IMG/VR virus record: IMGVR_UViG_3300017971_003441
Location: 1 to 20,866 of that record
Strand: one strand, 5' to 3'
Source of the DNA: a virus
Length of the DNA stretch: 20,866 nt
A model generated the notes under the pieces. It had not been told where the DNA came from, did no database searches, and was given only the letters and a program-made list of their open reading frames with translations. Below are positions 1-20,187 of this stretch, piece after piece. How positions within the stretch are numbered: the stretch's first letter is position 1; the number at the start of each line of letters is the position of its first letter. The position numbers and the translations under genes were made by a program.

Positions 1-282
1 TGTTCATTCCCGCAATCAAACGGCGTGCTCGACCCACCGGAGGGCGTGACGCTTGATGATTGCGGCGTTCTGTCTGTGTGCTTTACGCATTTCGACGATG
101 AGAAGCAAACGCCTGTAACTATCGCGTGCTGGAAGCTGACGGCCGGTGAGCTGGAAACCTTGAAGAAGACCGGCCGAATCTGGGTGGGCGGTCGCGGTCA
201 CACGATGCAACCGCTTTTTCTTACTGCGGATAATCCCTTTCAGGAGGACGGACAATGCCAGCAACCCCCAGCATCTTCTTGA
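1..282 (+). CDS. Small phage-type hypothetical protein, 5' end cut by window edge
   Basis: The reading frame is open from base 1, so the true start probably lies outside the window; a GTG at 25 is the only internal candidate start near the edge. The visible protein is about 93 residues, soluble, with no signal peptide or membrane segment. It contains a compact motif of the type CWKLTAGELETLKKTGRIWV followed by GRGHTMQPLFLTADNPF. I associate this pattern (Trp and Thr, TGxxW, then a Pro-Phe ending) with small conserved phage proteins of unknown role that often sit beside structural genes. Its last 28 bases overlap the next gene, so it is probably translated with the operon that follows. No function is assigned. 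Confidence 0.6.
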   Translation, partial: CSFPQSNGVLDPPEGVTLDDCGVLSVCFTHFDDEKQTPVTIACWKLTAGELETLKKTGRIWVGGRGHTMQPLFLTADNPFQEDGQCQQPPASS

Positions 283-926
283 TCGGTTGCGTGAACGGTG
301 GAACCAGCATTGTAGCCAAGCTGTACCAGACCCTCGGCTGGCGGTACAGCGAGGACAATGAGCACCACCGTAAGTTTATGGAGTGTTCGGCCGCCAATGC
401 CGTGACCGTCCGAATGCGCGACGAGATGGATCACCGCCCGAGTCGGCCACCGACGGTAGCCGAGGCGACCGAGCGGTTCCTTGCGTGGTTTCGCGATTGC
501 GAGAAGCCGGTCATCTGTAAAGATCACCGCTTCTCCTTTTGTCTGAGCCGGTTGTCCTCGGCCTTAATCAAGATTGAACCTACCACCGCGCTCGCATGGG
601 TCCAGAAAGACCTTGCCAGCGTCGCTCGGTCGATTCGCCGAAGGCGCGGAAACAAGGGGTGGTGGTGGAATCGGAGCCCAGAGGAATGGTTTGCAGCGGC
701 CGAGCGGGAGTATCAATTATGGCCCGGTCAGAAGTGGATAGTTCCCTTCGGAGCTATCAAGACGGCCGTCGCGACGGGAGCCAAGCGGAGGTTTCTTACA
801 TGCCTTGGGGTTGAATTATTTGTGCCACCCAGCTTAGAATGTGTGTCGGCAGCGATGGCCCTCTTTGACACGGGCCGAGACAATCCAGGGAATCCGAACC
901 AAGGAAAAGACGGATGGCAAACCTGA
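255..926 (+). CDS. Sulfotransferase-like protein
   Basis: This 223-residue protein resembles the PAPS-dependent sulfotransferase fold. An N-terminal beta strand leads into a P-loop-like turn, GCVNGGTS (residues 11-18), then a helix, where the family has the 5'-phosphosulfate-binding loop (RxGTS/T type). Further on, KDHRF (89-93) matches the usual K-D-P-R-F element, and QKDLASVARSIRRR (117-130) matches the 3'-phosphate-binding strand and helix (RDPxxxxxS). A lysine stands where the family usually has arginine, so activity is uncertain. A clear RBS (caggagg, 241-247) precedes the ATG. The end overlaps the next gene by 13 bases. Surrounded by glycosyltransferases, it could sulfate a sugar; this is inference. 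An alternative is another P-loop kinase-like fold. Confidence 0.6.
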   Translation: MPATPSIFLIGCVNGGTSIVAKLYQTLGWRYSEDNEHHRKFMECSAANAVTVRMRDEMDHRPSRPPTVAEATERFLAWFRDCEKPVICKDHRFSFCLSRLSSALIKIEPTTALAWVQKDLASVARSIRRRRGNKGWWWNRSPEEWFAAAEREYQLWPGQKWIVPFGAIKTAVATGAKRRFLTCLGVELFVPPSLECVSAAMALFDTGRDNPGNPNQGKDGWQT

Positions 927-1567
927 CTCACGAGATTGCTCGGAAGTGGTGCCCGATGTTCATGCTGCGAACGAAAGACGTGCCACCGCAGCATGGCGGA
1001 ATCCTACCGAGCGAAATGCTCCTATTTATATCGGCTTGCCTGGAATGCGGAGTACAGACGGTCATCGAGTCGGGCCGAAAGTTTGGGCACAGCACGGAGA
1101 TTCTCGCTTGCTTTGCCGACCAGTGGGAGGTTGTGAGCATAGAACGCCACCCCGATGCCGCGACAGACAAGCGGCTCAAGAATCGCCCGAACCTATCGCT
1201 GCTCAAAGGCGACGGCGCGAAGCACATGGCGCGATTGCTCAAAAGCTACCCTCGCGCCGCGCTGTTATTGGACGGCCCTAAGAATATGGCCGGGATCGAG
1301 CTGTACCTTATCCACAAGCGGGAGATCGTCTTGGCTGGCGTCCACGATCTTTGCAAGCGGATCGAGGGTGGAGATGCAAACGGTGGGCGCGAATGGGCGG
1401 AGTTCGAGATCGAGGGCTCCTACTTTTCAGATGACCCGGAGTACGTTGCCGAGTTTGGGCACCTGGACGAAGCGGCGCTCAAACAGGCGCAGCATACGCA
1501 CGCCTCGCTTTTGCCGGTCGCGAGCGTGCTTGGGATTCTTCCTGGCGGACTGGCAAAAGGAGAGTAA
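914..1567 (+). CDS. Class I SAM-dependent methyltransferase-like protein
   Basis: The 217-residue protein has a Rossmann-type methyltransferase core. Motif I is VIESGRKFGHST (50-61), with an acidic strand end and glycine turn as in the CmcI and Methyltransf_24 groups. The acidic residue that would hold the ribose of SAM is in SIE (75-77). Then come LLKGD (96-100) and the catalytic-face strand LLLDGPK (117-123). Those groups include enzymes acting on small molecules and sugars, so O-methylation of a glycan is plausible but not shown. The start ATG lies 5-8 bases after an aaggaa RBS and overlaps the sulfotransferase-like gene. The stop is followed one base later by the next ATG, which suggests coupling. 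Confidence 0.65.
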   Translation: MANLTHEIARKWCPMFMLRTKDVPPQHGGILPSEMLLFISACLECGVQTVIESGRKFGHSTEILACFADQWEVVSIERHPDAATDKRLKNRPNLSLLKGDGAKHMARLLKSYPRAALLLDGPKNMAGIELYLIHKREIVLAGVHDLCKRIEGGDANGGREWAEFEIEGSYFSDDPEYVAEFGHLDEAALKQAQHTHASLLPVASVLGILPGGLAKGE

Positions 1568-1568
1568 T

Positions 1569-1847
1569 ATGCCCAGTATGACCTTTACAGTCAACGGAGT
1601 CGAGCATCGCGTGTTCGGCAACCGAGACGAGATTAACGGAGTCAAGGCTTTGGTGGCCGAGCGCGACGCTTTGGCAGTGTCGGCAACCGATCCGAAACCA
1701 CAGGCGACGAAGAAAGGATTGTCTCGTGCGAATCGCCGTGAATCCCAAGGTGTATCGGGTGAAGTACCCGCGACAGCGGAAGACGCGACGGCTGATCTAT
1801 CTGGCAGCGATCGCGCACCGGATGGGCCACAAGGTTCGGATTCATAA
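1569..1847 (+). CDS. Small hydrophilic protein overlapping the next gene
   Basis: This 92-residue frame begins at an ATG placed 5-6 bases after a strong aggag RBS (around 1557-1563) and one base after the previous stop. Residues 1-50 look like a folded module (TFTVNGVEHRVFG, then a charged helix). Residues 53-92 are Ser, Gly, Asp and Ala-rich and probably disordered. The last 122 bases lie inside the following glycosyltransferase gene in another frame. This is far longer than the 1-16 base overlaps of the other junctions. The good RBS and start spacing support a real gene. The disordered tail may exist only because that DNA is constrained by the other frame. I recognise no family. Confidence 0.5.
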   Translation: MPSMTFTVNGVEHRVFGNRDEINGVKALVAERDALAVSATDPKPQATKKGLSRANRRESQGVSGEVPATAEDATADLSGSDRAPDGPQGSDS

Positions 1848-2718
1848 CCCTTGCGGCTACGCTCGCTACAAGTTTCAGGATGTGATTCGCACGCTGCCGG
1901 AGGATCGTGGCAAGCTCGCGACACCGCCTGACGTTTACCTTTGTTCCCACGCGCTGTTGTTGAAGCGACCGGATGTTGTGCCGAAGGGTTGCAAGGTGGT
2001 AGCTTGGAAAGAGTCGCTCCGGTTGCTGGATGACCAAGTGCTCGCCGACATGGCTGATCTGATTGTCGGCTACGTCTGGAAGCCAAAGGATTGGACATTC
2101 CGCAATGTCAAAGTGCGACCGGGGCACCTGGAAAACGTCGCGCACAAATACCTCCAAGTCCCCTGGCTCTGTCATGACCGGGTGCTGGAGGCGCTGCACT
2201 CCGCAAAGCTGACGAACGCTTACCTTGACGATGATCTGCCCGCCATCCGGTCGCGGTTCGGATCGACCGAGAAGAAACGGAAGGTCGGCTTTATCGGCCA
2301 TCGCCTCCCCCACCGAAGTAAGATCATGGAGCGGGTAGAGGCGGCCTTCGGTTTCGAGATCAAGCGGTGGGCTGGCGGGCACGATCCCGGCCTGCCACCC
2401 GGCGAATACCTCCGGTGGCTGACCGAGTGCGAGCTGAACCTCAACCTGGAAGGCGACACTTGGGGGTGCTCCCGGCTGGCCGAGTGCGCGATGATGGGGG
2501 CCGCTGTTGTCCAGTGTCGGCCTGACCGCTTCGATTATGACCCCCCTATATCGGCCGAGAACGCTATCGTGTGCAATGATTGGGCAGACGCCCCGACAAT
2601 ACTCGCCGGGCTCGACAGGGCCCCAGACGCTGCCAGGGGGGCCTCGGAGGCGTATTGCGGGGGCTGGAGCCTCCGAGGCCAGCTCAACCGGGTCTTTGCC
2701 CGCCTGGGGGTGGCCTGA
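1726..2718 (+). CDS. GT-B-type glycosyltransferase-like protein (divergent)
   Basis: A 330-residue protein starting at GTG, eight bases after agaaagga. The N-terminal half begins with a strand and a helix rich in R-L-x-x-L-A-x-x-x-H-x-M-G-H (residues 22-35), typical of the first Rossmann unit of GT-B enzymes. The second half starts with KVGFIGHR (186-193) and contains LNLEGDTWGCSRLAECAMMG (239-258), which resembles the nucleotide-sugar-binding region of exostosin and CgeB-like glycosyltransferases. It lacks the exact E-x7-E motif of the GT4 neighbours. The start is favoured because the first strand would be lost with any later start. The stop shares one base with the next ATG. The donor and acceptor are unknown. 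Confidence 0.65.
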   Translation: MRIAVNPKVYRVKYPRQRKTRRLIYLAAIAHRMGHKVRIHNPCGYARYKFQDVIRTLPEDRGKLATPPDVYLCSHALLLKRPDVVPKGCKVVAWKESLRLLDDQVLADMADLIVGYVWKPKDWTFRNVKVRPGHLENVAHKYLQVPWLCHDRVLEALHSAKLTNAYLDDDLPAIRSRFGSTEKKRKVGFIGHRLPHRSKIMERVEAAFGFEIKRWAGGHDPGLPPGEYLRWLTECELNLNLEGDTWGCSRLAECAMMGAAVVQCRPDRFDYDPPISAENAIVCNDWADAPTILAGLDRAPDAARGASEAYCGGWSLRGQLNRVFARLGVA

Positions 2719-3710
2719 TGCGCACCCCCCTCTTGGTGTATGACGTGAATCGGTGGGCTTGGCACTATCGGGCCACCGATACCGCAGCGGCAGCTCCGCC
2801 AGGGATCGACCCCACCACGATGCAGGCCAGCACGTTCCTCGCGCATGTCGGGGATCGTGGGTTTTGGGATCGGTATGATTCGCTATTCTTTATGAGTTGG
2901 GCTGGCTGCCCGATTGATCGAATACGCAAGTCGAGTTGTCGCCGCCTTGTTACGCTCGTCACGTCCGCTGGTCCCGCCTTTCGGGCCCTCGACGGAGATG
3001 ATTGGCGAACCTGGATCGTCACCGGCTCGCGCAACTTCGGCAACGCTCACTCAAAGCTGCCGAGGTTCGATGCGATCATTACAGTCAATCGGTTCCTCTA
3101 TGACGCTTGCCGGAAGCATACAGACGGTGAAGTTCGGATGATTCCAAGCGGCGTGAATTGCGAGTTGTTCCGACCGGCCGAGCAACCGCAGCCGGAAGGT
3201 CGCCCGTTTCGCGTTGGCTGGTGCGCGAATATCAAGGGCACGCATACCGTTAAGGGCCACCGCGAGATTCTCGTTCCGCTGATGTCGGAGCGGCCGGAGT
3301 GGGACTGGCAGGTCAACACGAACGATAGGCGCAGCGCATGGCCTCGCGAAGAAATGGCTGCATGGTATCGGACGCTGGACGCTTTTCTATGTACGAGCGT
3401 CATCGAGGGTACCCCCTCGCCAGTTTTCGAGGCTGCCGCATCAGGGGTGCCGATTGTCTCAACTGATGTTGGCTGCGTGGAGGATTGGCCGCTCCCTCAC
3501 GAGCTTGGTTTGATCGCCTCGCCATACCGCAACCCCGTCGAGGCGCAGGCAACGCAAAACCAACTACTTGACACGCTGACCGGCCTTTCCAGGCTTACCG
3601 CAGACGAGCGCCGGTCGCTTGGGCTCCAACTCCGGGCGGATGTCGAGCAGCGGTACAGCTACGAGGTGATTGCCCCGCAATACTTGGAGGTGATATGTCC
3701 AGAGTCCTAG
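2718..3710 (+). CDS. GT4-like glycosyltransferase, paralog 1
   Basis: This 330-residue protein is one of three related glycosyltransferases in the operon. The N-terminus LLVYDVNRWAWHYRA (5-19) carries the shared YDVxxWA signature. A linker strand PSGVNCELF (143-151) precedes the C-terminal Rossmann domain with VGWC (166-169) and a KGHREIL-type helix. The donor-binding motif E-x7-E is EGTPSPVFE (230-238), followed by AASGVPIVSTDVG (240-252), as in retaining GT4 enzymes. The chosen ATG overlaps the upstream stop (TGATG); a longer upstream extension in this frame would run into the previous gene and has no homologous look. The 3' end overlaps the next gene by 16 bases. Confidence 0.8.
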   Translation: MRTPLLVYDVNRWAWHYRATDTAAAAPPGIDPTTMQASTFLAHVGDRGFWDRYDSLFFMSWAGCPIDRIRKSSCRRLVTLVTSAGPAFRALDGDDWRTWIVTGSRNFGNAHSKLPRFDAIITVNRFLYDACRKHTDGEVRMIPSGVNCELFRPAEQPQPEGRPFRVGWCANIKGTHTVKGHREILVPLMSERPEWDWQVNTNDRRSAWPREEMAAWYRTLDAFLCTSVIEGTPSPVFEAAASGVPIVSTDVGCVEDWPLPHELGLIASPYRNPVEAQATQNQLLDTLTGLSRLTADERRSLGLQLRADVEQRYSYEVIAPQYLEVICPES

Positions 3711-4720
3711 TGGTCTATGACGTAGATGGGTGGGCGCAGCATCGGTTCGCCTCTGGCGTGGCGAAATATGCGCCGGAAGGTATGGAGGTTGTAACGTGCG
3801 ATACACCCGGTTACTTGAACCGGATGGAGCCGGAGGACCGCGCGAGGTTTGACGGGGTCTGCACGCCCTTGTTTGCCAGCTTCAAGAAGCCGGGCTGCAA
3901 GCGGCTCGTCGCGTTGCTGGCGTCTCACGCGCTGATGCACGATGCCTACGATCCCAAGAATTTCTTGACGCTCGGCGTCACCAAGGATCGCCACCGTCGG
4001 CTGGCTCGGAAAATCCTGACACGGGCCGATGCCGCAATCGCTCGCAACAATGCTCTGGCTTCCTCGCTTCGTCCATACAACACTCGGATTCAGGTCATCC
4101 CAGCGGGAGTCGATGTCGAGATATTTCATCCGCGAGGCCGGACACCTACACCCCACGGCAAGCTACGAGTCGGCTGGTGTGGGAACAAGCATTGCAAACT
4201 CAATCGGAACTTCAAGGGGTACGAGCATATCCTGCGACCTTTGATGTCGCGACCGTTTGCAAGCGACTTCGAGTGGCAAATAAACACTCGTGATTTTCGC
4301 AATGCCTTGTCTCCACCCGAAATGGCTCAGTGGTATCGGTCGCTCGACGTTTTTCTCACCACGGCGTCTGCCGAAGGTACACCGAATCCACCGATGGAGG
4401 CCGCCGCTTGCGGCTGCTGTGTCCTCGCAACGAACGTGGGGCAACTGAGTGATTGGGGCGAACTACACAGTCGACAGCTCTTGCTTCCAACTTACGAGAA
4501 CGACGAGGAAGCGCGCGGGGTTGTGCGGCTGTTCGAGCAAGAGTTGTCCCTGTTGAATCGCGACCGGGAGCGATTGCGAGAGTGCGGCGAGGCCCTGGCC
4601 GCCAGCATCCAGACGCGATATTCCTACGAGCATATCGCTCCGCGAGTCATAGCCCATGTCGCCGGAATAGATCGCCCGAAACTCATTAAGTATACAAGCC
4701 GAGACAGGCACGCGCGATGA
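3695..4720 (+). CDS. GT4-like glycosyltransferase, paralog 2
   Basis: A 341-residue GT-B protein closely patterned on its neighbour. It opens with VLVVYDVDGWAQH (4-16) and KYAPEGMEV (24-32). It shows the interdomain strand VIPAGVDVEIF (134-144), then LRVGWCGN (157-164) and NFKGYEHILRPLM (172-184). The E-x7-E motif is EGTPNPPME (227-235), followed by AAACGCCVLATNVG. These are the expected positions for nucleotide-sugar binding in GT4 enzymes. A strong ggaggt RBS lies 4-5 bases before the ATG. The stop overlaps the radical-SAM gene start as ATGA. The protein has no membrane anchor or signal, so it should act in the cytoplasm. Acceptor unknown. Confidence 0.8.
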   Translation: MSRVLVVYDVDGWAQHRFASGVAKYAPEGMEVVTCDTPGYLNRMEPEDRARFDGVCTPLFASFKKPGCKRLVALLASHALMHDAYDPKNFLTLGVTKDRHRRLARKILTRADAAIARNNALASSLRPYNTRIQVIPAGVDVEIFHPRGRTPTPHGKLRVGWCGNKHCKLNRNFKGYEHILRPLMSRPFASDFEWQINTRDFRNALSPPEMAQWYRSLDVFLTTASAEGTPNPPMEAAACGCCVLATNVGQLSDWGELHSRQLLLPTYENDEEARGVVRLFEQELSLLNRDRERLRECGEALAASIQTRYSYEHIAPRVIAHVAGIDRPKLIKYTSRDRHAR

Positions 4721-5952
4721 TCCACTTCGTCTATCCGCCACGACCGTATCTTATTGAGCCAAACGCCCAAGTTGGCCTCGGCCTATTGATGCTCGCAACC
4801 TATGCCCGAAACCTTGGGCTCCCTGTTGCTGTTCACAACTGGCAAGATGGCTTTGGCGACACCAACCTTCTCCGTGCGGCCGAGGATATTATCTGCGTGA
4901 CCGGCTGCTTGGCCGATGCTCGCGAGATCAATCGGCTTATCGCAGCCTATCCCGGTCGCGTGATTGTGGGCGGCCCCATCTCCTGCTCGCCAGATATTGT
5001 CCACGCGAAGGCAAGGCTCATTGTCGCCGGGCCTGGGGAATGGCTGATCGAGTCGATTGCAGGAGGGACAATCCCGTGCGCCCGTGTGCTCAACACTCCG
5101 CCCATGCAAGACTTCGACCGCTACCCATTCCCTGACCGTCGTTTACTCGGCGAGCATCTCGGTGGGCGGATTTTTCACCGGGTTGCTGGGGTCACTCCGC
5201 AGCCGTCAACAACCCTGGTCACGTCGCGAGGGTGCCGCTTCACTTGCGCGTTCTGTGAGTCAGGCCACAGTAAGACATTGCATGAATATCATTTGTCCCG
5301 CATCGAGATGGAGTTGGATGACATCGCTCGCCTCGGCATCAAGCATGTTCGGATCGGCGATGACAACCTGAACGCCACGCCACGCCGTCGCCGCAAGCTG
5401 ATCGACATGCTAGCACTCCACAAGATGAAATGGAGGGCGAGCCTACGGGCTGCCCCATCCAGCCTACAACTCTTTACGAGGATGCGCGATGCCGGATGCG
5501 TGGAGCTGAACATCGGCCTCGAATCCGCAGACCCGGCTGTGCTGCTGCGGATCGGCAAGCGGTCTACGGTGTCGCGGATCACTACTGCGATTGAGGAAGC
5601 GGTCGAAGCCGGAATACCTAACGTGCGAGCCTTAATGATGATGGGTACGCCGGGAGAAACGCGCGACACGCTGACCTTCAACAAGCGATGGGTGGAGGCT
5701 CACCCAGACGTGACGGTTTGCCTCACAGCGTTCTATCCTTTCCCAAACACCAGCATCGCGTTTCGGCCCGAAGAATACGGTGTCCGGCTTCGGACCACGC
5801 GAAACGTCAATTTCTACTCCTGGCGTCCTGACGGCTCGGAGCCGGACGCTCACATAGACATCATCGGCGGGCTTTCCCGGCAGCAACTAACCGCGCAGCT
5901 CCGCGAGTTCCGGATGTTCCTCGATTCGCGAGAGCAGCTCAACCACGGATGA
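4717..5952 (+). CDS. Radical SAM protein with cobalamin-binding-like N-terminal domain
   Basis: A 411-residue protein. Residues 1-120 follow the pattern of the cobalamin-binding domain in B12-type radical SAM enzymes: QVGLGLLMLATYAR (18-31), RVIVGGPISCSPDI (81-94) and AGPGEWL (104-110). I do not see the cobalamin-ligating DxHxxG motif. The radical SAM core has the cluster motif CRFTCAFC (Cys 173, 177, 180), then GDDNLNA (214-220), GLES (267-270) and MGTPGET (309-315), the typical core strands. Relatives include methylases and ring-forming enzymes, but the reaction here cannot be read from sequence. It could modify a sugar or a methyl acceptor for the neighbouring transferases. It is joined by ATGA overlaps on both sides, indicating operon membership. 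Confidence 0.85.
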   Translation: MIHFVYPPRPYLIEPNAQVGLGLLMLATYARNLGLPVAVHNWQDGFGDTNLLRAAEDIICVTGCLADAREINRLIAAYPGRVIVGGPISCSPDIVHAKARLIVAGPGEWLIESIAGGTIPCARVLNTPPMQDFDRYPFPDRRLLGEHLGGRIFHRVAGVTPQPSTTLVTSRGCRFTCAFCESGHSKTLHEYHLSRIEMELDDIARLGIKHVRIGDDNLNATPRRRRKLIDMLALHKMKWRASLRAAPSSLQLFTRMRDAGCVELNIGLESADPAVLLRIGKRSTVSRITTAIEEAVEAGIPNVRALMMMGTPGETRDTLTFNKRWVEAHPDVTVCLTAFYPFPNTSIAFRPEEYGVRLRTTRNVNFYSWRPDGSEPDAHIDIIGGLSRQQLTAQLREFRMFLDSREQLNHG

Positions 5953-6476
5953 TCGACATGCACCCAAACTGCCAAGCGATCTGGAAAGAACATTGCCTAC
6001 AATACTTCAAGCCGGGAATGACGGTGCTTGAAGCGGGGCCGAACCTAAGCGGTAGCTGGTACAAGAACAACCACCCCGACGGAAAGCGGCTCATCTGGGA
6101 GACAGTGGATATTCGCGAGGACCGCTCCCCAACAGGTCGCTTGCACGACGTAACTCACACAGGCACCGCCTACTCCTATCCAGTCCCGGCAAACTATTAT
6201 GATGTCGTCTTGGCTGTTATGGTCGCCGAGCACGTCCCAATGCCGTGGCGATGGGTGCCGGAGCTTGCCCGCTGCTGCAAGGTGGGCGGTCGCGTTATTC
6301 TCATCGCTCCCTTTGTTGGTCAAGAGCATGGGGATCAGGATTACTGGCGGTTTCTGCCTCGCGGTTTGCGCGTGCTGGCCGAAGAAGCGGGGCTTGAGGT
6401 TTGCAAGGCCGAGGTGATGGACTTGGTGCCGGATGACTACCACATTGACTGCCTTCTTGTCGCGAGGAAACCATGA
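5949..6476 (+). CDS. SAM-dependent methyltransferase-like protein (Methyltransf_11 type)
   Basis: A 175-residue single-domain protein. Motif I is VLEAGPN (26-32), a variant without the full GxGxG turn. VDIRED (53-58) gives the acidic residue at the end of the second strand. YYDVVLAVMVAEH (83-95) is the characteristic strand of the Methyltransf_11 family, and KVGGRVILIAP (111-121) is the strand after it. PFVGQEHGDQDYWRF then resembles the active-site loop of methyltransferases found in glycan clusters. The start overlaps the radical-SAM stop and the stop overlaps the next start (both ATGA). The most likely role is methylation of a sugar or glycan, from context only. Confidence 0.75.
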   Translation: MIDMHPNCQAIWKEHCLQYFKPGMTVLEAGPNLSGSWYKNNHPDGKRLIWETVDIREDRSPTGRLHDVTHTGTAYSYPVPANYYDVVLAVMVAEHVPMPWRWVPELARCCKVGGRVILIAPFVGQEHGDQDYWRFLPRGLRVLAEEAGLEVCKAEVMDLVPDDYHIDCLLVARKP

Positions 6477-7435
6477 CTGACATTTCGCTCGGATTCGTCT
6501 ACCGCAAAGGGAACCCGTACCTGAACAACATGCGGGCGCAGGTGAACATGCGGAAGCTGTTCTTCGTCGCCTTGCCTCGGCAACTCGGTGTGACGGTCGA
6601 GTATTACGGGAGCCCAGACGTGCTGGACCTCAAGCACGTCGCCGACAAGCATGATGCGTGGTTGTTCTTTGATGCAGTTGGTTGGGGTATTCCGAAGTTG
6701 TTGAATTGGGAGAAGCTGCGAGGGCCGAAGTTCTGTCATATCGGAGACAGTCACGGAGCGGCGAAGGTTTGCCCGGTCTACGGTAAGACCAAGCTGGAAC
6801 AATGCCGCGAGTTCGCCTTTGACGCCTATTTCTTTCAGCATCACCCCGAGTATTTCTATCGGTTCTTTCCTCGCGATTGGACTTATTGGTGGGTGCCGAT
6901 GGGGGTCGATTGGACGCTTTACAATACTCGATCCGGCAAGCCGTGGGAATTGCGACGGAAGGACAAGGTGCTCTTGACCGGCGTGGACGGCCCCGAATAC
7001 TACCCGCTGCGCACGAGGCTCCGGCATGACGCAAGGATTCATTACAATCAGCCGGGAGGCTACCAGGGGGACAGCTACTCCCCTGGTCAATACGACGGAG
7101 AACGATACCCTGTCCTGCTCGGCCAGTGGAGGGCGAGCGTTGCGAGCGGGTACTCGATCCTAAATAAGTGTTTCGAGGTCGCGGCCGGTGGGTGCCTGAA
7201 CCTGATCGAGGTAACGGAGGACAACGGCTGCGGCCTGATCGGATACCAGGACGGAAAGACAGCGGTGTTCATCACCCCGCAAACAGCGAGCGACAAGATC
7301 GACGAGTTTCTCGCCGATGCGGACAATCCTCGCTGGCAACAGATAGCGATGGCCGGTCGCGAGTTCGTCCTCAACAACTACACTCACATGAATTGCGCGG
7401 CCCGGCTGGTCGAGCATATCAGGAGGTCGCTCTGA
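6473..7435 (+). CDS. CgeB-like glycosyltransferase, paralog A
   Basis: This 320-residue protein has the layout of the CgeB or Glyco_trans_1_2 group. The N-terminal part includes WLFFDAVGWGIPKL (63-76) and FCHIGDSHG (87-95). The C-terminal domain begins with KVLLTGVDGPEYYPLR (165-180) and contains NKCFEVAAGGCLNL (231-244), where family members carry the Glu that contacts the nucleotide sugar. The end matches the family's usual capping helix with an RLVEHIR-like finish. A similar VLLxGVxxPxxYPLR element occurs in the gene at 9002, so the two are probably paralogs. It is coupled by ATGA upstream and TGATG downstream. Substrates unknown. Confidence 0.75.
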   Translation: MTDISLGFVYRKGNPYLNNMRAQVNMRKLFFVALPRQLGVTVEYYGSPDVLDLKHVADKHDAWLFFDAVGWGIPKLLNWEKLRGPKFCHIGDSHGAAKVCPVYGKTKLEQCREFAFDAYFFQHHPEYFYRFFPRDWTYWWVPMGVDWTLYNTRSGKPWELRRKDKVLLTGVDGPEYYPLRTRLRHDARIHYNQPGGYQGDSYSPGQYDGERYPVLLGQWRASVASGYSILNKCFEVAAGGCLNLIEVTEDNGCGLIGYQDGKTAVFITPQTASDKIDEFLADADNPRWQQIAMAGREFVLNNYTHMNCAARLVEHIRRSL

Positions 7436-8028
7436 TGCCACCCTTTGTCATACCAGAACGGTGCCGCGACTTGGCGGCGCTCCAAGTGTCGCAATACCCA
7501 GACGACCCTTCGGCTTTCGACTGGATCACCGAGCGGGAACTGGACGCCTTCTTGCCGAAGATCGACAAGCCTCGCCGCGTGATTGATCTCGGCTGCGGGC
7601 TCGGGCGAGTTGCCTGCGGGTTGCACATGGCCTACAATGATCCTGAGATCGAGTACATCCTTGCGGATGCAAACCGACACGATGGGCCACCGGCTACGGG
7701 CTGGAACCCTGGCGAAGAATGGTACAATCTATTTGAGCTGACGGTCGAGTTTTGCGAAGCGAACGGCTTGCGAAACTATCGCACTTGGGACTTGTTGAAA
7801 CACCCGCACCCGCCAGATGCCGACCTAACGGTGTCGATGCTGTCGGTGGGGTTCCACTGGCCGCTCAACGATTGGCTGAAACCTTGGACAAAGACGGAAC
7901 AGATGGTCTTCGGCTGCCGCGCGGGCATCTACTCGGCAGGCCCGTTCGCGCCGCACTTCCGATCCGTCGAGGTTGCGCCGGGCTTCTGTGACAAAGAGGA
8001 GATTTTCATTTTGAAAGGGATGCAGTGA
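7435..8028 (+). CDS. SAM-dependent methyltransferase-like protein
   Basis: A 197-residue protein with a textbook motif I, VIDLGCGLGRV (49-59), and a second-strand acidic end in ILADANR (75-81). DADLTVSMLSVGFHW marks the fourth strand region, where class I enzymes have the catalytic face. The remaining C-terminal strands (FGCRAGIY, SVEVAPGF, EEIFILKG) fit the Rossmann methyltransferase fold. I use the ATG that overlaps the previous stop (TGATG, after an aggagg RBS at 7421-7426). An upstream extension in this frame would run deep into the previous gene. It differs in sequence from the other two methyltransferase-like proteins, so it may act on a different position. Confidence 0.75.
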   Translation: MPPFVIPERCRDLAALQVSQYPDDPSAFDWITERELDAFLPKIDKPRRVIDLGCGLGRVACGLHMAYNDPEIEYILADANRHDGPPATGWNPGEEWYNLFELTVEFCEANGLRNYRTWDLLKHPHPPDADLTVSMLSVGFHWPLNDWLKPWTKTEQMVFGCRAGIYSAGPFAPHFRSVEVAPGFCDKEEIFILKGMQ

Positions 8029-9005
8029 AGTTATTGCTGATCTACGATGTTCCCGGCTGGGCTTTCCACCACATTGGCACCGGCCTACAAAAGTATGCGC
8101 CCGACGGATGCGAATTGACCCTCGTTTCGCACGAAGGGTACTACGCCGACTATTTTGAGCACCCCAGCGCTTGCGAACCGTTCGATGCGGCAGTGGCCTT
8201 GTCGATCTACACAGCAAGGGGGGAGATACGGCCGTGGTTTGCCTTCGCTTGTTCGCACGCCTTCCGCTTCGCAACCAAAGAGGAGTCCGACTGGCGGACT
8301 CGCGGCGTGAATCCGAACCGCTGCGAAAGTGCGGCGCGAAGTTTTCTGTCAGACGAGGTGGACTGGGTGTTTGCGTGCTGCTCGGAGGTCCAAGAGGCGT
8401 TTACTCGCCACGCAGACCGAGTGAGCTTGCTGCCGCAAGGATTGGATGACACGGTATTCTTCCCACGGAAGCGGAATCGCAGCGGCAAACTCCGCGCTGG
8501 GTGGTGCGGGCAAAGGTACGCGAACTTCAAGGGCTACGCCGAGATATTGTGCCCGCTGATGGCTCAAACGAGTGGGAAGTGGAGTTGGGAGATTAACAGG
8601 CGAGGATACCAGGGGGCGCGAACCCCGTTGCAGCAAGCCGAATGGTATCGGTCGCTCGATCTGTTCGTCTGTACCAGCATCGCCGAGGGTGGCCCCTTGC
8701 CTCCGTTCGAGGCTGCGGCGTGCGGTGTGCCCGTGCTGACAACCGATGTCGGTTCGGTCAAGGATTGGAAGATGCCGGAGGGCCCGTGGCGGGTCAAACC
8801 CTATCGTGATCGCCGAAGTGCAAGGGCAACCGTGAACCGGATGGCCCAAGTAATGTCATCTTTTGAGCCGGACCCATCGCTCGGCCGGGAGTTCGCCGAG
8901 AGTATCCAGCGGGATTGGACGTGGCGAGTTATTTCGCCTCGGTGGTGTGCGGAGCTTTCGCGATTACTGGCAACGTGGCCGGAATGGAAAGGAGAGACAT
9001 TGTGA
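8025..9005 (+). CDS. GT4-like glycosyltransferase, paralog 3
   Basis: A 326-residue protein starting at GTG within a GTGA overlap. It opens with LLLIYDVPGWAFHH (3-16) and KYAPDGCEL (23-31), almost the same layout as the gene at 3695. The interdomain strand is SLLPQGLDDTVFF (134-146). LRAGWCGQ (156-163) and NFKGYAEILCPLM (167-179) follow. The E-x7-E motif is EGGPLPPFE (221-229), then AAACGVPVLTTDVG. Conserved features of GT4 donor binding are therefore intact. It is separated from its two paralogs by four other genes, so the duplication is old or the cluster was shuffled. Predicted soluble and cytoplasmic; specificity unknown. Confidence 0.8.
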   Translation: MKLLLIYDVPGWAFHHIGTGLQKYAPDGCELTLVSHEGYYADYFEHPSACEPFDAAVALSIYTARGEIRPWFAFACSHAFRFATKEESDWRTRGVNPNRCESAARSFLSDEVDWVFACCSEVQEAFTRHADRVSLLPQGLDDTVFFPRKRNRSGKLRAGWCGQRYANFKGYAEILCPLMAQTSGKWSWEINRRGYQGARTPLQQAEWYRSLDLFVCTSIAEGGPLPPFEAAACGVPVLTTDVGSVKDWKMPEGPWRVKPYRDRRSARATVNRMAQVMSSFEPDPSLGREFAESIQRDWTWRVISPRWCAELSRLLATWPEWKGETL

Positions 9006-9961
9006 CGAAGATTCTCGTACTGTTCCCAAGGCAACTCTGGACCCGCAAGCAAAGCCCCGTCAGGCGACACGCGATTCTCGCCCTGCAAAGGCGCGATGAT
9101 ACCACCGTCAAGATCAGCGGGCAGGGGTGGCCCGACTGGCGGCATGACATCGACGGTGGCGCGGTCGCGATGATTGAACACCTGATGCCGGATGCCGACG
9201 CTGTGTTCTGGTACAAGCCGCTCGGGGCCAAGGGTATTCCGCCACTTATTGACTCACAAGCTGTAAAAGACCGCTGGTTGACGGTCGAATCTTTCAACGA
9301 GTGCTGGTGGCCCGACCATCGGGCGGAGCGTGAAGCGACGGAGGCGGGCACGTCACTAGTGATCTGCCACCACGCGAACGATCAGCAGCAGTTTCGGACG
9401 CTGCCGACGGTTCACATTCCGCATTGCGCCGAGAAGTCGATCTTCGCCAAGGCCGCGAAGCCTTGGGAGAAACGCGATATAGATGTTCTGCTGTGCGGCG
9501 TTCAGAGTCCGAGCATCTATCCGCTCCGCGCGAAGTGGCTCGAACTCTTCAAGGCTGGCAAATTGCCGGGGCGTGCTCATTATCACGAACGCCCACCCTA
9601 TCGGGCGAAGAACCTTGCGGCCTGCGATGACTTGGTTGCCGAGTACGCCTCCCTTCTCGGTCGATCTAAGATCGTTCTCGGCTGCTCGTCGCGATATAGG
9701 TACGCCCTTGCGAGGTTTCCTGAAGCGGCGATGGCGGGAGCGCTTCACTTGAGCGACATGCCGCACAATGCGCCACCATTCTACGCCGATTTTATCTGGC
9801 CACCGACTGACGGGGCTCTGGTGGACCATGTGAATGAGTGCCTGTGCGTACTCAACGAACTTGACGGCTGCACACCGATCCATGACCTCGCAAAGCAGTT
9901 TTACAGCCAAGAGGTCTACGCCGAGAAATTTCTTCATGCGGTGTCGGAGCGGTCGACGTGA
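9002..9961 (+). CDS. CgeB-like glycosyltransferase, paralog B
   Basis: A 319-residue protein. I choose GTG at 9002, which overlaps the previous stop as GTGA and gives a natural first strand, TKILVLFPRQLW (2-13). Longer in-frame starts lie inside the preceding gene. The middle contains DVLLCGVQSPSIYPLR (161-176), matching the gene at 6473, and FPEAAMAGALHLSD (239-252) corresponds to the nucleotide-sugar-binding segment of CgeB-like proteins. No E-x7-E motif is present. It is the last clearly enzymatic gene of the plus-strand operon; 41 bases separate it from the next gene. Function as a glycosyltransferase is likely, donor and acceptor unknown. Confidence 0.65.
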   Translation: MTKILVLFPRQLWTRKQSPVRRHAILALQRRDDTTVKISGQGWPDWRHDIDGGAVAMIEHLMPDADAVFWYKPLGAKGIPPLIDSQAVKDRWLTVESFNECWWPDHRAEREATEAGTSLVICHHANDQQQFRTLPTVHIPHCAEKSIFAKAAKPWEKRDIDVLLCGVQSPSIYPLRAKWLELFKAGKLPGRAHYHERPPYRAKNLAACDDLVAEYASLLGRSKIVLGCSSRYRYALARFPEAAMAGALHLSDMPHNAPPFYADFIWPPTDGALVDHVNECLCVLNELDGCTPIHDLAKQFYSQEVYAEKFLHAVSERST

Positions 9962-10002
9962 TTCGTTAAAGCTGTTTCGATGAGTAGCTTTGAGGTAATG
10001 GC

Positions 10003-10581
10003 ATGACAACAGAACACTCTGGCAACGTCGGCGTAATAAACATTGACGGTCGCCTTATTGCGCCGATTAGGTCGTGGCAGGTCGGGAGTGCGATAACGCG
10101 GGTAGTCGAACTGGCGTGCTGCATCGACATGGAATTACCACGGCAGCAGGTCGCGAGGACAGCGGACGCAACGGTCACTTGCACAATCCAAGTGCCTGCA
10201 TCCATAATTGAGCAATTCTCTAGCGTCTGCATCCCCGGTGTACCAACCAAGGTGCGATTAGGCCCACCGGAGTATGGATACCAGGGTGCGTGCGTGCTTA
10301 ACTCTGTGAATTTCGCAGGGCATGACGAGAGCTTACAGGTCTGGAATGTCAACCTCACTCTCTACCAAGCTGCTGACATATCCGCGCCCTTCGATATGCC
10401 ACCCAAGGTGGGTCACGTTATATCGTTTCGCGATACAAAGACCGACCAATGGCACGGCCACTACCTTTCTCCGCCTGCGGTGTCACTCGCTGCCCATCCC
10501 AAGACAGCCCGAGCGAAAAAGCCAGTGCCGAAACCAAAGCCGAAGGTCACTCGGCAGATTGTGTTTGACGATGAGGAATGA
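10003..10581 (+). CDS. Orphan beta-rich protein with basic Lys-Pro tail
   Basis: A 192-residue protein of no recognised family. Residues 1-145 alternate short hydrophobic strands (VGVINIDGRLI, ATVTCTIQV, WNVNLTLYQA), which suggests a beta-sandwich or barrel as in phage structural proteins. The end is a linker rich in Lys and Pro (AKKPVPKPKPKVTRQ) followed by an acidic FDDEE tip. The start ATG follows a gaggta RBS at 9992-9998. It sits alone after the transferases and its final 35 bases overlap the convergent gene on the other strand. It might be a virion or acceptor protein of the glycan system, but that is a guess. Confidence 0.65.
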   Translation: MTTEHSGNVGVINIDGRLIAPIRSWQVGSAITRVVELACCIDMELPRQQVARTADATVTCTIQVPASIIEQFSSVCIPGVPTKVRLGPPEYGYQGACVLNSVNFAGHDESLQVWNVNLTLYQAADISAPFDMPPKVGHVISFRDTKTDQWHGHYLSPPAVSLAAHPKTARAKKPVPKPKPKVTRQIVFDDEE

Positions 10582-10867
10582 GCCACGACTCGCACTCCGC
10601 AGCAAAGCGGCCCTTCCAGCCAACTAAGGCCCAGAACCAGAAGCGGCGCGTTGAGCAACCACGATTCATCTTGGCGCAATTCCCACTGGTGAAGTGTTTG
10701 CAATCCTGGCAGATCGAAAACCGCCGCTCGATCTCCGGCATGTCGTACAGCGTTTTCCCTGCCTCGACGGCTTCGGCTGCGCGGTACAGCGTCACGTCGC
10801 TGTATCGCTCTCCACCGCTGAGAACCTCCGCCCGATGACGGAGAAACCGTCGTATTGAGTCATTCAT
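10547..10867 (-). CDS. Small Cys-rich (zinc-knuckle-like) phage protein
   Basis: A 106-residue protein. The start is fixed by an ATGA overlap with the upstream gene (10864-10867); an earlier start in the same frame would enter that gene. Residues 1-50 are helical and charged. Residues 63-82 contain the cluster SICQDCKHFTSGNCAKMNRG plus a following Cys, so two CxxC-like pairs could bind zinc or iron. This C-x2-C spacing is common in small proteins near phage tail genes, though their role is not known to me. It is the last gene of the minus-strand operon and ends inside the convergent plus-strand gene. It could be a tail-tip or accessory protein. Confidence 0.6.
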   Translation of the reverse strand: MNDSIRRFLRHRAEVLSGGERYSDVTLYRAAEAVEAGKTLYDMPEIERRFSICQDCKHFTSGNCAKMNRGCSTRRFWFWALVGWKGRFAAECESWLIPHRQTQSAE

Positions 10868-11466
10868 ACCGCCGTGATGGTGCAGGTGGCTGAGGAGAAA
10901 TCGCACGCCGTCATCGTATCGGTCAGCGGATCGTATGTCAATGATTCGGCGCTCAAGCTACAATCGGGCTTACTTGCCCACTCTTTGTAGAAATCGACGG
11001 TGGTAGTTGCGCCATGCTGACTGTAAAGCGCGGCCTGGACGAGGATGCCGTAATTGCCGAGAAGCGTATACCAGTAGACCTGGATCAGATAACTTTGTGT
11101 GCCACACCCGTCTCCGCAATCATGTCCTGGGGTGTCATAATCGCTCGCTCCGGGTCCAGGGTAGTACATGAGGCAATTATTCACGGGCTCATCTGTGCTC
11201 GGAATCGCACGGAAGGTATCGTTCCAGTACGACGTGCAGTAAGCGGCTGTGTTGCATGTTCCGTTCGCAACCGAGGCGAAGGTCACATCGTAACCATCAG
11301 GCATTCCACCCGTGCAATAATCGCAAGGCGGGCCTCCTTCGCAACAGCAAGGGTAGCCGTAGCCGTACTCGCGAAAGAGCGGGAGTCGTCGCCGGTCGCG
11401 GCGTGGGCGGAAGTCGAGCGGGTCGCCGGGCCTCCACAATGTCTTGTCTGGAGTCCACAGTTTCAT
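10864..11466 (-). CDS. Cys-rich putative virion protein, tail-tip region
   Basis: A 200-residue protein starting at the ATG that overlaps the previous stop (ATGA at 11463-11466). The first 35 residues are basic. Then comes a dense cysteine patch, PCCCEGGPPCDYCTGGMPDG (around residues 39-58), and a beta-rich C-terminal region with more cysteines (GHDCGDGCGTQ) and several aromatic residues. The patch followed by a VTF strand is a pattern I associate with phage or prophage proteins of Planctomycetota. Disulfides or metal binding would both fit. By position, after the tape measure and two other late proteins, it probably belongs to the tail tip or fibre. No enzyme motif is seen. Confidence 0.6.
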   Translation of the reverse strand: MKLWTPDKTLWRPGDPLDFRPRRDRRRLPLFREYGYGYPCCCEGGPPCDYCTGGMPDGYDVTFASVANGTCNTAAYCTSYWNDTFRAIPSTDEPVNNCLMYYPGPGASDYDTPGHDCGDGCGTQSYLIQVYWYTLLGNYGILVQAALYSQHGATTTVDFYKEWASKPDCSLSAESLTYDPLTDTMTACDFSSATCTITAV

Positions 11467-12419
11467 GCCGGGCAGGGACCAACCAACGTGTCCCAATCCT
11501 CCTGTTCATCATTCCAGCCGAGGATCACAACGGCATTGTTGTCAAGCTCGCCGCCTGCCTGATTGTTCCCTTCTGTCGGAGCGGCTCCATCCGAACTCAT
11601 AAAGAGCGCGGTGTCCAGCGGCTGCATTATTGTCACATTGTCGATATTGTAGGTTGAATCGGTCGTGGCCACGCCACCAGCCTCATTCACCAAGGCCCGG
11701 ATCATCGTGGCGTGCGGTTGAAGTTTTTCGATCTCCCAAAGCTGGGAGTCGCCGAAATACCGAGCGCGACCCCGCGACCCAGCACAGACTCCGGCGTTCC
11801 GCGCGCGGCCACGAAACTCGGAGTGGCGATCATAAACCTCGAACTCGATGTCCGTGTTCGGGGTGAGGGTGCCGGACAAATCTTCAAGCAGGTAGGCCGT
11901 CGCTTGCCCACCAGGGGCCAGGGCGTCCTTCAATTCAAACCGCCACACGCTCAAAGGCGGCGCGAGCGATTCCCAGCGGCCCGATTGTTTTGACAGGCCA
12001 GCCACGAGTCTGTCGCCGCTTCCCCATCGCTCAATTCCAATCGCTATGCCCGAGTCGTTTCTGTGGACGTTTGGGCAGTAGAGCGTCCTGTCGTCATCGG
12101 TGAACGTCTGGTAAGTGTAGTCCGTCGGATGGTATCGCACGATCCGGCAGTTTTCAACCCACGGGACATCCGGTTCGCTGGCACTCCCAGCCGTCCGAGT
12201 TGGGTCAGGCCACTGCATCGCCTCGGTCAGCTCGAACATTTCAACTCGGCTGTACGCTTGACCCGTGACGGTGATACCACCAGGGCCTGCGCCGACAGCT
12301 ACGCCGCCTGCGCCAGCCACCTTGCCAGCCATCGCCGCTTGCTGCATCGCAGCGTTCATTCCGCTGGCCGAGGTTTGCCCCCACTTCTGACCCTTTTTGA
12401 ACTGCGGTAGTGGTTTCAT
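11463..12419 (-). CDS. Putative tail-tip or fibre structural protein
   Basis: A 318-residue protein. I choose the ATG at 12419, four bases after the previous stop; an upstream extension would run about 140 bases into the neighbouring gene. The first 45 residues are an Ala, Gly and Gln-rich segment (KKGQKWGQTSASGMNAAMQQ, then AGGVAVGAGPGG), like a flexible or coiled connector. The rest is strand-rich, with WRFELKD, LWEIEKLQPHATMIRALVNE and an acidic, Asn-rich end before a final GPC. This architecture (connector plus beta-rich body) fits a distal tail or fibre protein, inferred from its place downstream of the tape measure. No specific family named. Confidence 0.6.
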   Translation of the reverse strand: MKPLPQFKKGQKWGQTSASGMNAAMQQAAMAGKVAGAGGVAVGAGPGGITVTGQAYSRVEMFELTEAMQWPDPTRTAGSASEPDVPWVENCRIVRYHPTDYTYQTFTDDDRTLYCPNVHRNDSGIAIGIERWGSGDRLVAGLSKQSGRWESLAPPLSVWRFELKDALAPGGQATAYLLEDLSGTLTPNTDIEFEVYDRHSEFRGRARNAGVCAGSRGRARYFGDSQLWEIEKLQPHATMIRALVNEAGGVATTDSTYNIDNVTIMQPLDTALFMSSDGAAPTEGNNQAGGELDNNAVVILGWNDEQEDWDTLVGPCPA

Positions 12420-12423
12420 ACGA

Positions 12424-13278
12424 TCAGCCCAGAGCCGTGGCGAAGTCGAACAAGGGCAAAAGATCGACGAGCGGGTAGATGGAAGTCTCGCCCGTTTCGG
12501 TGTTTTCGAGAAGTTGCCAGGGTGGATCGGCTCCCGGTCGATAGAAGTGATTCCAGCCAATTCCGCTCGTCACGACACCCGCACTTGTGTAGGTGATATT
12601 CTTCTCGATGAATTCGTAGTGAAGGCTGTATGTCGGCAAGCCGTCCGCATCGTACTCGCGCTCGGAGCCATAGCCAGCGAAAAGGATTGTTCCAGCGCTT
12701 CCGCCAAAGATTATGGTTGAATTGGAACAGCCAATCTTCTCCCGCATGGCAGCGAAAGGCGGATCGCTTACGTTGTCCCACGTCAGACGGTGCGTGATAG
12801 TCGGTATCCGAATCGCGACGTTCAGCGTTGAGGGCAACGGGTCTTTCGGTGCAGTGGCCCACCGGAAGCCGTGGTTGGGTATGGTCATCATATCGACGCT
12901 CGCCTCCATGCTGTGCGTCAGATAGGTTCCCTCCGGCGTGTCGGGGTCCGTGTCGTCTTGCCCGTTCGCTTCGAGCAGCTTCCCTGTGTAGGTCAGGGTC
13001 GCCTTGCGGAAGGTGTAGATGGTTCCAGAAGACGGAGGCGTTTCGGGCTCCCAGTGTCCAAAGTTCAGGCCCGTCAATTTCATCCACGAGTATTCCGGGT
13101 GCTTTGCCTTCTCGGTGACGCGGAATCCCTGACCGGCCACAAAGGACGCGCCGAGCAATTCCTCCATGAGTGCTTCGACGTTGCTTCCGGCGATCTTCAC
13201 CTCGCGCGTTGCTGTTGCCGAGTTGCCGCTCCAAGTCGGACCCGTGCGCCGCAGCTCGTCGAGTATGACCGTTGACAT
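12424..13278 (-). CDS. Putative distal tail or tail-associated structural protein
   Basis: A 284-residue, beta-rich protein immediately downstream of the tape measure gene, the place where siphoviruses usually encode distal tail and tail-hub proteins. The N-terminus has STVILDELRRTGPTW, then alternating strands: GTIYTFRKATLTYTGKLLE, STLNVAIRIPTITHRLTW, TYSLHYEFIEKNITY. No lysozyme or peptidase motif is visible. A strong RBS (AGGAGT on the minus strand) lies about six bases before the ATG, with a gap of 8 bases after the tape measure stop. Position and strand-rich composition support a structural role; assignment to Dit or hub specifically is not justified by the sequence I can read. Confidence 0.6.
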   Translation of the reverse strand: MSTVILDELRRTGPTWSGNSATATREVKIAGSNVEALMEELLGASFVAGQGFRVTEKAKHPEYSWMKLTGLNFGHWEPETPPSSGTIYTFRKATLTYTGKLLEANGQDDTDPDTPEGTYLTHSMEASVDMMTIPNHGFRWATAPKDPLPSTLNVAIRIPTITHRLTWDNVSDPPFAAMREKIGCSNSTIIFGGSAGTILFAGYGSEREYDADGLPTYSLHYEFIEKNITYTSAGVVTSGIGWNHFYRPGADPPWQLLENTETGETSIYPLVDLLPLFDFATALG

Positions 13279-15533: not shown

Positions 15534-15788
15534 CTACCCTTTCTTCTTCTTCCGGCGTTTCTTCAACCAGTCTTTCCGCATCCTCTTCCACTCGGACCCG
15601 CTGACCAGTCGCGTGCCGGGGCCGAGGTCTTTTTCATCGGCGAGATAGCTGCGTATCTGATACAGCGTCATCTTTCCGACCTGCGCGGCTGTGAATCCAT
15701 AACCTTCGCCGAGCGCCCTTATGATGCGTCGCCAGGGGAATGCTCCTTCTTCTCGCCCTCCCCCTCCGACGGGTTCGGGCCAGTCGAG
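15534..15788 (-). CDS. -1 frame extension of the tail assembly chaperone (GT part)
   Basis: This 84-residue stretch has no start codon before its conserved part, so it is easily missed. It begins after a slippery site and reads LDWPEPVGGGGREEG, FPWRRIIRALGEGYGFTAAQ, VGKMTLYQIRSYL, and ends with a very basic tail (KKRRKKKKG) at TAG. The content looks like a genuine folded module typical of the T half of gpG/gpGT-like chaperones. The frame is open upstream to a TAA at 15906-15908, so a shift must occur between there and the zero-frame stop at 15719. The fused product would have 265 residues (181 + 84). Its stop lies three bases before the tape measure ATG. I infer translation only by frameshifting. 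Confidence 0.8.
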   Translation of the reverse strand, partial: LDWPEPVGGGGREEGAFPWRRIIRALGEGYGFTAAQVGKMTLYQIRSYLADEKDLGPGTRLVSGSEWKRMRKDWLKKRRKKKKG

Positions 15789-16330
15789 TTTCCCAAGCCG
15801 TCCTCCCCGGATGGTCGACCGAGCTGGCTTTGCATCGTGTCGACGAGTAACGACTCGGCCGCTGCCGCCGCCTCCTCTCCGGTCAGCTCTGTGTTCTTGA
15901 GGATGTTATCCAGCACGCGCTCAAACTCGTTGAGCAGCTCGGCGAGAATGGATTGTGGCGTCAACTCCTTGCATGATGTGAGCGGGTTCTCTGGATCGTA
16001 GTTAGGATCGTTGTGTCTAATCTGTATCCAGGTGCAATACGCCAGCCCATTCATCGAGTCCATCCACTCTGACAACTCCTTGCGGGTGACGCTCTTGACT
16101 CGGCACCGTTCCGCCATCGCCACTTCGAGCACCTGCTTGGTGAACTCTGGGTTATTGTCGCTGCTCATCGTCAACAGCTCTTTTGCAGCGACGAGCGGAT
16201 TTGCGCGGAGTGAAAGGAGGTGATCTTCCATCTCGGCGTAATGCTCGGCGATTCGTGGCCGAACACTCATCGTTTTACCCGCAAAGGTAAAGGTTGTCGG
16301 CGCAGCGAATGCGCGATTCGCACCATCCAT
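15719..16330 (-). CDS. Tail assembly chaperone, short form (G-like)
   Basis: A 203-residue protein with a strong RBS (GGAGG on the minus strand, eight bases before ATG). Residues 10-45 start with a PTTFTFAGKTMSVRPRIAEH strand-helix unit. The middle is helical, and residues 145-203 are Ala, Glu and Gly-rich and acidic, with no fold signature. Tail assembly chaperones of lambda-like phages are made in a short and a frameshifted long form, placed between the tail tube and tape measure genes; this gene occupies that position. The zero frame ends at TAA (15719-15721). The last 22 residues lie after the slippery site and are dispensable filler by appearance. A -1 shift replaces them with an 84-residue module. 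Confidence 0.85.
   Translation of the reverse strand: MDGANRAFAAPTTFTFAGKTMSVRPRIAEHYAEMEDHLLSLRANPLVAAKELLTMSSDNNPEFTKQVLEVAMAERCRVKSVTRKELSEWMDSMNGLAYCTWIQIRHNDPNYDPENPLTSCKELTPQSILAELLNEFERVLDNILKNTELTGEEAAAAAESLLVDTMQSQLGRPSGEDGLGNSTGPNPSEGEGEKKEHSPGDAS
15755..15780 (-). promoter_or_regulatory. Possible stimulatory stem-loop 3' of the slippery site
   Basis: Seven bases after the slippery heptamer, on the minus strand, GCCC (15780-15777) can pair with GGGC (15758-15755). An inner CCC (15773-15771) can pair with GGG (15764-15762) around a six-base loop. The spacing of seven bases matches known stimulatory structures. The pairing is short and the surrounding bases are G-rich, so alternatives exist and this remains a weak inference. 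Confidence 0.35.
15788..15794 (-). promoter_or_regulatory. Programmed -1 frameshift slippery heptamer GGGAAAC
   Basis: On the minus strand the zero-frame codons are TTG GGA AAC, giving G GGA AAC, a canonical X XXY YYZ heptamer very close to lambda's G GGA AAG. In the -1 frame the codons become GGG and AAA. It is the only heptamer of this class I found between the -1-frame stop at 15906 and the zero-frame stop at 15719. It is in register with codons 180-181 of the short form. Confidence 0.8.
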
Positions 16331-16369
16331 TGTTCTTGCCTCCGGGGTCTGCGGTTAAGGGGGCCGAGG

Positions 16370-16771: not shown

Positions 16772-16785
16772 TATTCTCTCCTATA

Positions 16786-16821
16786 AAGGAAAAGGGCCCC
16801 ACTCCAAAAGGAGAGAGGCCC
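16786..16821 (-). terminator. Stem-loop with T-tract just upstream of the tail tube gene
   Basis: On the minus strand a 12-position stem (16821-16810 with 16805-16794, two mismatches) closes on a four-base TTTT loop. It is followed directly by TTTT, CC, TTT. This looks like an intrinsic terminator. However, only about ten bases remain before the tail tube RBS, so no promoter could fit after it. A leaky terminator or an mRNA-stabilising or processing hairpin is more likely. On the plus strand there is no T-run after the stem. Confidence 0.55.
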
Positions 16822-17836: not shown

Positions 17837-17845
17837 GACGTTCTC

Positions 17846-19457: not shown

Positions 19458-19465
19458 ATCGTCAC

Positions 19466-19846: not shown

Positions 19847-19854
19847 GGCTTCTC

Positions 19855-20178: not shown

Positions 20179-20187
20179 CGTTCTCTC

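Follow-up and report, generated by a model that had tools for sequence, protein, structure and literature searches.

A glycosyltransferase-rich cassette linked to the tail module of an uncultivated tailed-phage lineage

Phage particles are usually regarded as bare protein. What would a phage build with at least six glycosyltransferases of its own, and on what would it be built? This question is raised by a cassette of glycan-enzyme genes at positions 255–10581 (plus strand) of IMG/VR virus record IMGVR_UViG_3300017971_003441. The stretch analyzed here, termed the window, is the whole of this single contig (20,866 bases), which probably represents part of a phage genome. An uncultivated tailed-phage lineage has the cassette as a core trait, alongside a shared tail module. 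The favored reading, to which a probability of about one half is assigned, is that, as particles assemble in the cytoplasm, the encoded enzymes equip at least one of the phage's own virion proteins with a mixed oligosaccharide; the most likely recipient is a tail protein.

The cassette, its lineage and its enzymes

The cassette contains 12 genes within 255–9961, followed by a further gene at 10003–10581. The gaps at successive junctions are -13, +1, -122, -1, -16, -4, -4, -4, -1, -4, -4 and +41. The tail operon lies on the minus strand (20864–10547), and the two operons meet tail-to-tail with an overlap of ~35 bases. A first-pass annotation, made from the DNA letters without database searches, had described a tightly coupled run of genes converging with tail genes. 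Both features hold: the plus-strand operon extends beyond the described run to 10581, and tail families are matched on the opposite strand. Between the window and a related contig, termed G001, synonymous sites of the enzyme genes are near saturation (proportion of differences, pS, 0.62–0.86) and nonsynonymous differences are fewer (pN 0.18–0.39), which means that the cassette genes have been kept functional by purifying selection.

Relatives were taken from IMG/VR, and the lineage set with the cassette comprises the window, G001, G002, G007 and G010. The tail module (tape measure, T3, MTP, MTP2, T8, neck, adaptor, T12 and others) is common to G001, G002, G003, G007 and G010 at ~30–80% identity; the contig of G003, a fragment, stops ahead of the cassette position. 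In all five contigs of the set, window included, genes for CgeB1, GT4 and CgeB3 enzymes ("CgeB" being a working label only) lie close to the tail module's distal end, in an order that is largely kept. In the window, G001 and G007, cassette and tail genes run toward each other, although one CgeB3 gene of G007 lies on the opposite strand. In G002 and G010 the cassette is found some kilobases downstream of the tail genes, on the same strand. The identity of CgeB1, CgeB3 and the tape measure is 70–77% between the window and G001 and ~30–55% in other pairs. Cassette and tail genes diverge to a similar degree, with tail proteins down to ~35% identity across the five contigs. The deeper branching order of the tail and cassette trees is not the same, which makes a degree of exchange or paralogy likely.

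A block of four genes (radical SAM, MT2, CgeB2 and MT3) is missing at the cassette position in G001. Homologues of its radical SAM, MT3 and CgeB2 genes are found in G010, and the radical SAM gene also occurs in G002. The cassette can therefore be divided into a stable core (CgeB1, the GT4s and CgeB3) and a variable capping block. The core is present in G008 as well, in whose contig the tape measure was not detected. In a contig with a sheath-type tail, G009 (L031:10001-14108), GT4 and CgeB-like genes converge with tail genes, the GT4 gene with a tail-sheath gene.

Because the cassette is joined to the tail module and this pairing recurs in four related contigs, it is supported as phage-borne rather than as a host locus. 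The comparison across related phages that had been proposed for the cluster finds core and tail module together in five contigs, and the observation is stronger than originally stated, since the cassette is lineage-wide. In tblastn searches of 50,697 phage records, the proteins encoded at 1726–2718, 3695–4720, 6473–7435 and 9002–9961 had no match, and seven cassette proteins gave a single partial match in all, to the radical SAM protein. The window DNA found no DNA match in these records, hence no named relative at the DNA level. Microcystis phage Mae-JY30, the best tape-measure match (40%), was considered as a relative and rejected; its gene order differs and no glycan genes are annotated in the stretch examined.

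The claim of at least six glycosyltransferases is borne out, with three GT4 enzymes, two of Glyco_trans_1_2 type and one GT-B enzyme recognized by predicted structure. The count stands because GT4a, GT4b and GT4c pass the Pfam cut-offs for group 1 glycosyltransferases, CgeB2 and CgeB3 are homologous, and CgeB1 models as GT-B. The three GT4 proteins are mutual paralogues (31–37% identity) with weak profile similarity to phrog_2170, and the nearest named NCBIfam models of GT4a are exopolysaccharide and capsule enzymes. CgeB2 is marginally over the Glyco_trans_1_2 cut-off (26.6 against 25) and CgeB3 marginally under it (22.3). CgeB1 has no Pfam match and no convincing match among PDB sequences. 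Its AlphaFold2 (AF2) model has a two-domain GT-B fold (pTM 0.83), and Foldseek aligns it with many GT4 structures at probability 1.00, with modest TM-scores of 0.4–0.6; the model resembles MshA (best E 4.6e-8), BshA and glycogen synthase. Judged by this model, CgeB1 is a GT4-like GT-B glycosyltransferase that is visible by structure alone. In G001, moreover, one protein of 685 residues has a CgeB1-like half fused to a GT4-like one (L018:12826-14883).

The remaining enzymes would modify rather than extend a glycan, and their assignments vary in strength. The radical SAM (S-adenosylmethionine) gene is confirmed: its product carries a CxxxCxxC motif in the Radical_SAM domain, and its closest relatives are PhpK-type methyltransferases in NCBIfam and AprD4 in the PDB. 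The Pfam B12-binding domain is not matched by the window protein and is matched by a G001 paralogue at 2e-7. Three methyltransferases had been called, of which MT2 is solid and MT3 (under its cut-off) and MT1 (a weak match) are only probable. MT1 carries a SAM-binding-like motif, and its profile comparison with Methyltransf_24 members was not significant. The supposed sulfotransferase at 255–926 is a candidate only. It has a P-loop-like motif, GCVNGGTS, near its N-terminus, and searches of Pfam, NCBIfam, PHROGs and PDB sequences gave no significant match. Structure prediction, which yielded the GT-B fold of CgeB1, gave a poor model for this protein (AF2 pLDDT 42). Taken together, profile searches place the GT4s, CgeB2, the radical SAM enzyme and one methyltransferase above family cut-offs. 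The gene set and glycosyltransferase count of the first-pass annotation are thus upheld, with the sulfotransferase reduced to a candidate and two of three methyltransferases to probable assignments. Of the methyl and sulfate capping it envisaged, the methyltransferases are present and the sulfate cap is not established for the window, although relatives have members of true sulfotransferase families in their cassettes.

These cassettes reach ~20–28 kb. Upstream in G001 are GT64-, GT2- and GT4-type enzymes, Sulfotransfer_2 proteins (best E 5.7e-5), methyltransferases, a B12-type radical SAM enzyme and, judged by eye, a GT8-like protein. G002 and G010 encode a GDP-mannose 4,6-dehydratase (E about 1e-103), and related enzymes of dehydratase/epimerase type are found in G001 and G007. 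G010 further encodes a Sulfotransfer_3 protein (6e-8) and an FkbM methyltransferase, and G002 a hexapeptide transferase. The region is mixed in content, since it also encodes a helicase, an N4/N6 DNA methylase and a deaminase in G010 and, judged by eye, a primase-like gene in G001. G002 and G010 may be near complete, because tail operons sit at both ends of each contig. In another phage contig (L003:8554-11864), genes for a methyltransferase, a radical SAM protein (43% identical) and a Sulfotransfer_3 protein occur together.

What the cassette may build

In the proposed pathway, whose acceptor, step order and chemistry we infer, one soluble glycosyltransferase would prime a virion protein, and the paralogous GT4 and CgeB-like enzymes would extend the chain with more sugars. 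Where relatives possess a GDP-mannose 4,6-dehydratase, these sugars could include 6-deoxyhexoses. Capping or editing of the chain would fall to the methyltransferases and the B12-type radical SAM enzyme, joined in relatives by the sulfotransferases.

Several observations argue for this reading. The window cassette encodes six soluble glycosyltransferases and no membrane protein. The core occurs with the same tail module in five contigs, cassette and tail identities are alike, and the genes are under purifying selection. A nucleotide-sugar enzyme, the dehydratase, is encoded in G002 and G010, and the cassette-like genes of G009 also converge with tail genes. The first-pass annotation had left three targets open, namely the virion, the host surface and DNA. 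A virion protein is favored because the enzymes are soluble, the linkage to tail genes is recurrent and mycobacteriophages provide a precedent; the best-known DNA routes and membrane-linked remodeling of the host surface are disfavored. The elaborate decorated glycan it proposed is partly supported: the gene content is consistent with it, and the nucleotide-sugar enzyme and family-level sulfotransferases come in addition in relatives. Three points weigh on the other side. A tolerant insertion site could give the adjacency to tail genes, given the helicase, DNA methylase and deaminase in G010 and the recombination tracts. Several kilobases separate tail genes and core in G002 and G010, and homology to isolate-phage glycosyltransferases was not detected in the tblastn searches.

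A bolder version of the favored reading, which is speculative and on balance doubtful, holds that a lineage-wide pathway of ~10–28 kb coats the virion in a methylated, radical-SAM-edited, sulfated deoxyhexose glycan, that is, a virus-made sulfated sugar coat. If virion glycosylation is true, the sugar chain on the particles would be richer than the phage sugar coats known so far, with consequences for adsorption and environmental persistence. The linkage of 10–28 kb of glycan enzymes to tail genes across deeply diverged phages would suggest that virions can have an elaborate sugar coat as a core trait. The cassette would also be a source of new glycosyltransferases of the soluble kind and of a radical SAM enzyme, probably B12-type, whose substrate may be a glycan.

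Among the alternatives, remodeling of the host surface is unlikely but the best placed. The soluble enzymes would act on host lipid-linked precursors of, for example, a capsule or O-antigen-like polymer, providing superinfection exclusion or receptor masking. The GT4, GT2, dehydratase, methyl- and acyltransferase genes do look like those of polysaccharide loci, as do the nearest named models of GT4a. However, no protein of the window cassette has a hydrophobic 19-residue segment above 1.6, which means that it contains no membrane protein and therefore no flippase, polymerase or initiating transferase. Lipid-linked export is thus less likely, though host machinery could be used. Moreover, contig scans with head-tail adaptor and tape-measure alignments turned up no host or prophage; these scans used short peptide patterns and are insensitive.

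Glycan hypermodification of the phage's own DNA (TET/JBP- or hydroxymethyl-base-type), which would block host nucleases, is less likely still. Hypermodification with multiple glycosyltransferases exists, for which PMC12619734 cites Pyle 2024, and DNA methylases are encoded in G010 and G003. Yet a thymidylate-synthase homologue is absent from the lineage contigs tested, including the two that look near complete. A TET/JBP homologue is also absent from the lineage contigs tested, a weaker negative since the positive control scored under its cut-off. Among the four contigs tested for a C5-methylase, it is absent in the window, G001 and G002 and present in G003. The linkage of the cassette, moreover, runs to tail genes.

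Synthesis or modification of a small molecule or secreted glycan, in the manner of a secondary-metabolite cluster, is improbable: the radical SAM protein has AprD4, NocN and further enzymes of natural-product pathways among its relatives, but there is no scaffold synthase among the genes seen. Least probable is that cargo genes gathered by chance in a tolerant insertion site and share no product, since the absent block in G001, the recombination tract at 1–304 and the discordant deep branching, which would suit it, are set against coupled junctions, purifying selection and a core order largely kept among contigs whose tail proteins are 35–45% identical.

Borders, small genes and the tail operon

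The flanking and smaller genes of Table 1 have features of their own. DNA identity to G001 is 95.7% over 1–304, drops to ~65% at the cassette start and is about 65–80% through the following cassette, so 1–304 is probably a recent recombination tract that forms the cassette border. The small gene at 1569–1847 shares its last 122 bases, read in another frame, with CgeB1, and the overlap in G001 is nearly equal. The last cassette gene is 33% identical to its G001 counterpart, compared to 74% and ~90% for its two neighbors. Its product combines a KPKP linker with an acidic C-terminus that is conserved (TRQIVFDDEE), and it is a possible acceptor or virion protein, which is a guess.

Table 1. Features of the window, with strand and supporting evidence.
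Feature	Positions	Strand	Evidence
3′ portion of gene cut by contig end, left cassette border	1–282	+	phrog_25433 E 2.6e-8
Sulfotransferase-like protein, candidate only	255–926	+	P-loop-like motif; 61% identical orthologue in G001
MT1, probable class I methyltransferase	914–1567	+	NCBIfam weak, 0.0076; orthologues in G001, G007
Small conserved protein	1569–1847	+	Homologue in G001
CgeB1, GT-B glycosyltransferase (predicted structure), core	1726–2718	+	AF2 model and Foldseek; in G001, G002, G007, G008, G010
GT4a glycosyltransferase, core	2718–3710	+	Glyco_trans_1_4 6e-9
GT4b glycosyltransferase, core	3695–4720	+	Glyco_trans_1_4 2e-9
Radical SAM enzyme, probably B12-binding type, accessory block	4717–5952	+	Radical_SAM 1e-19
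MT2 methyltransferase, accessory block	5949–6476	+	Methyltransf_11 1e-7
CgeB2, Glyco_trans_1_2 glycosyltransferase, accessory block	6473–7435	+	6.5e-6; 50% identity in G010
MT3, probable methyltransferase, accessory block	7435–8028	+	Methyltransf_23 1.2e-3, under cut-off; 39% identity in G010
GT4c glycosyltransferase, core	8025–9005	+	Glycos_transf_1 3e-9
CgeB3, Glyco_trans_1_2-like glycosyltransferase, core	9002–9961	+	1.4e-4; in 5/5 lineage contigs
Last cassette gene, fast-evolving	10003–10581	+	33% identity to G001
Last tail-operon gene	10547–10867	-	106-residue orthologue in G001, nearly identical
T1, T2, T3, three genes distal to tape measure	10864–13278	-	Kept in relatives
Tail tape measure protein	13287–15530	-	phrog_1533 E 7e-94
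Remaining tail/head-tail connector operon	15719–20864	-	Neck1 8.9e-14, head-tail adaptor 8.6e-23, weak major-tail match

An open reading frame at 10578–10838 on the plus strand was rejected as spurious, because the conserved gene there sits on the minus strand. T1 (10864–11466, minus strand), close to the tail operon's distal end, is cysteine-rich (13 Cys) and 88% identical to its G001 counterpart. The protein encoded at 20188–20649 (minus strand) contains GPG motifs repeated at ~10-residue spacing and is 59% identical to that of G001, compared to at least 90% for the flanking proteins. No tandem repeats were found in the DNA. In G001, a gene for a papain-like peptidase lies beside one for a putative exported protein, judged by eye (L018:491-2102).

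Comparison with known glycan systems

Bacterial polysaccharide and glycan loci share with the cassettes their mixed glycosyltransferases, GDP-mannose dehydratase and methyl-, acyl- and sulfotransferases. Unlike them, the cassette is phage-borne and tail-linked and, in the window, encodes soluble enzymes only. Serotype-conversion loci of the gtrABC type are phage-borne and contain glycosyltransferases, but they use membrane proteins; the window cassette has none, and its enzymes are of GT-B type. Phage clusters for DNA glycan hypermodification combine several glycosyltransferases with tailoring enzymes, and the cassette differs in that TET/JBP and thymidylate-synthase homologues were not found (the TET/JBP control being under its cut-off). 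A search of one article library returned no paper that pairs phage-encoded glycosyltransferase, sulfotransferase and methyltransferase, or that reports the combination with radical SAM.

The closest parallel is found in mycobacteriophages, where Che8 and its relatives carry glycans on capsid and tail tube, according to two articles that cite Freeman et al. 2023 (PMC11256854, PMC12619734). In both cases the glycosyltransferases are phage-encoded, and soluble enzymes would be expected to modify subunits of the capsid or tail; in the lineage described here, their genes are recurrently tied to virion structural genes. The cassette differs in its content, with at least six glycosyltransferases plus methyl-transferring and radical SAM enzymes, to which relatives add sulfotransferases and a nucleotide-sugar enzyme. 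The glycosyltransferases searched also have no detectable sequence match in isolate phages. The cassette is probably a variant of phage glycan systems that works like virion glycosylation.

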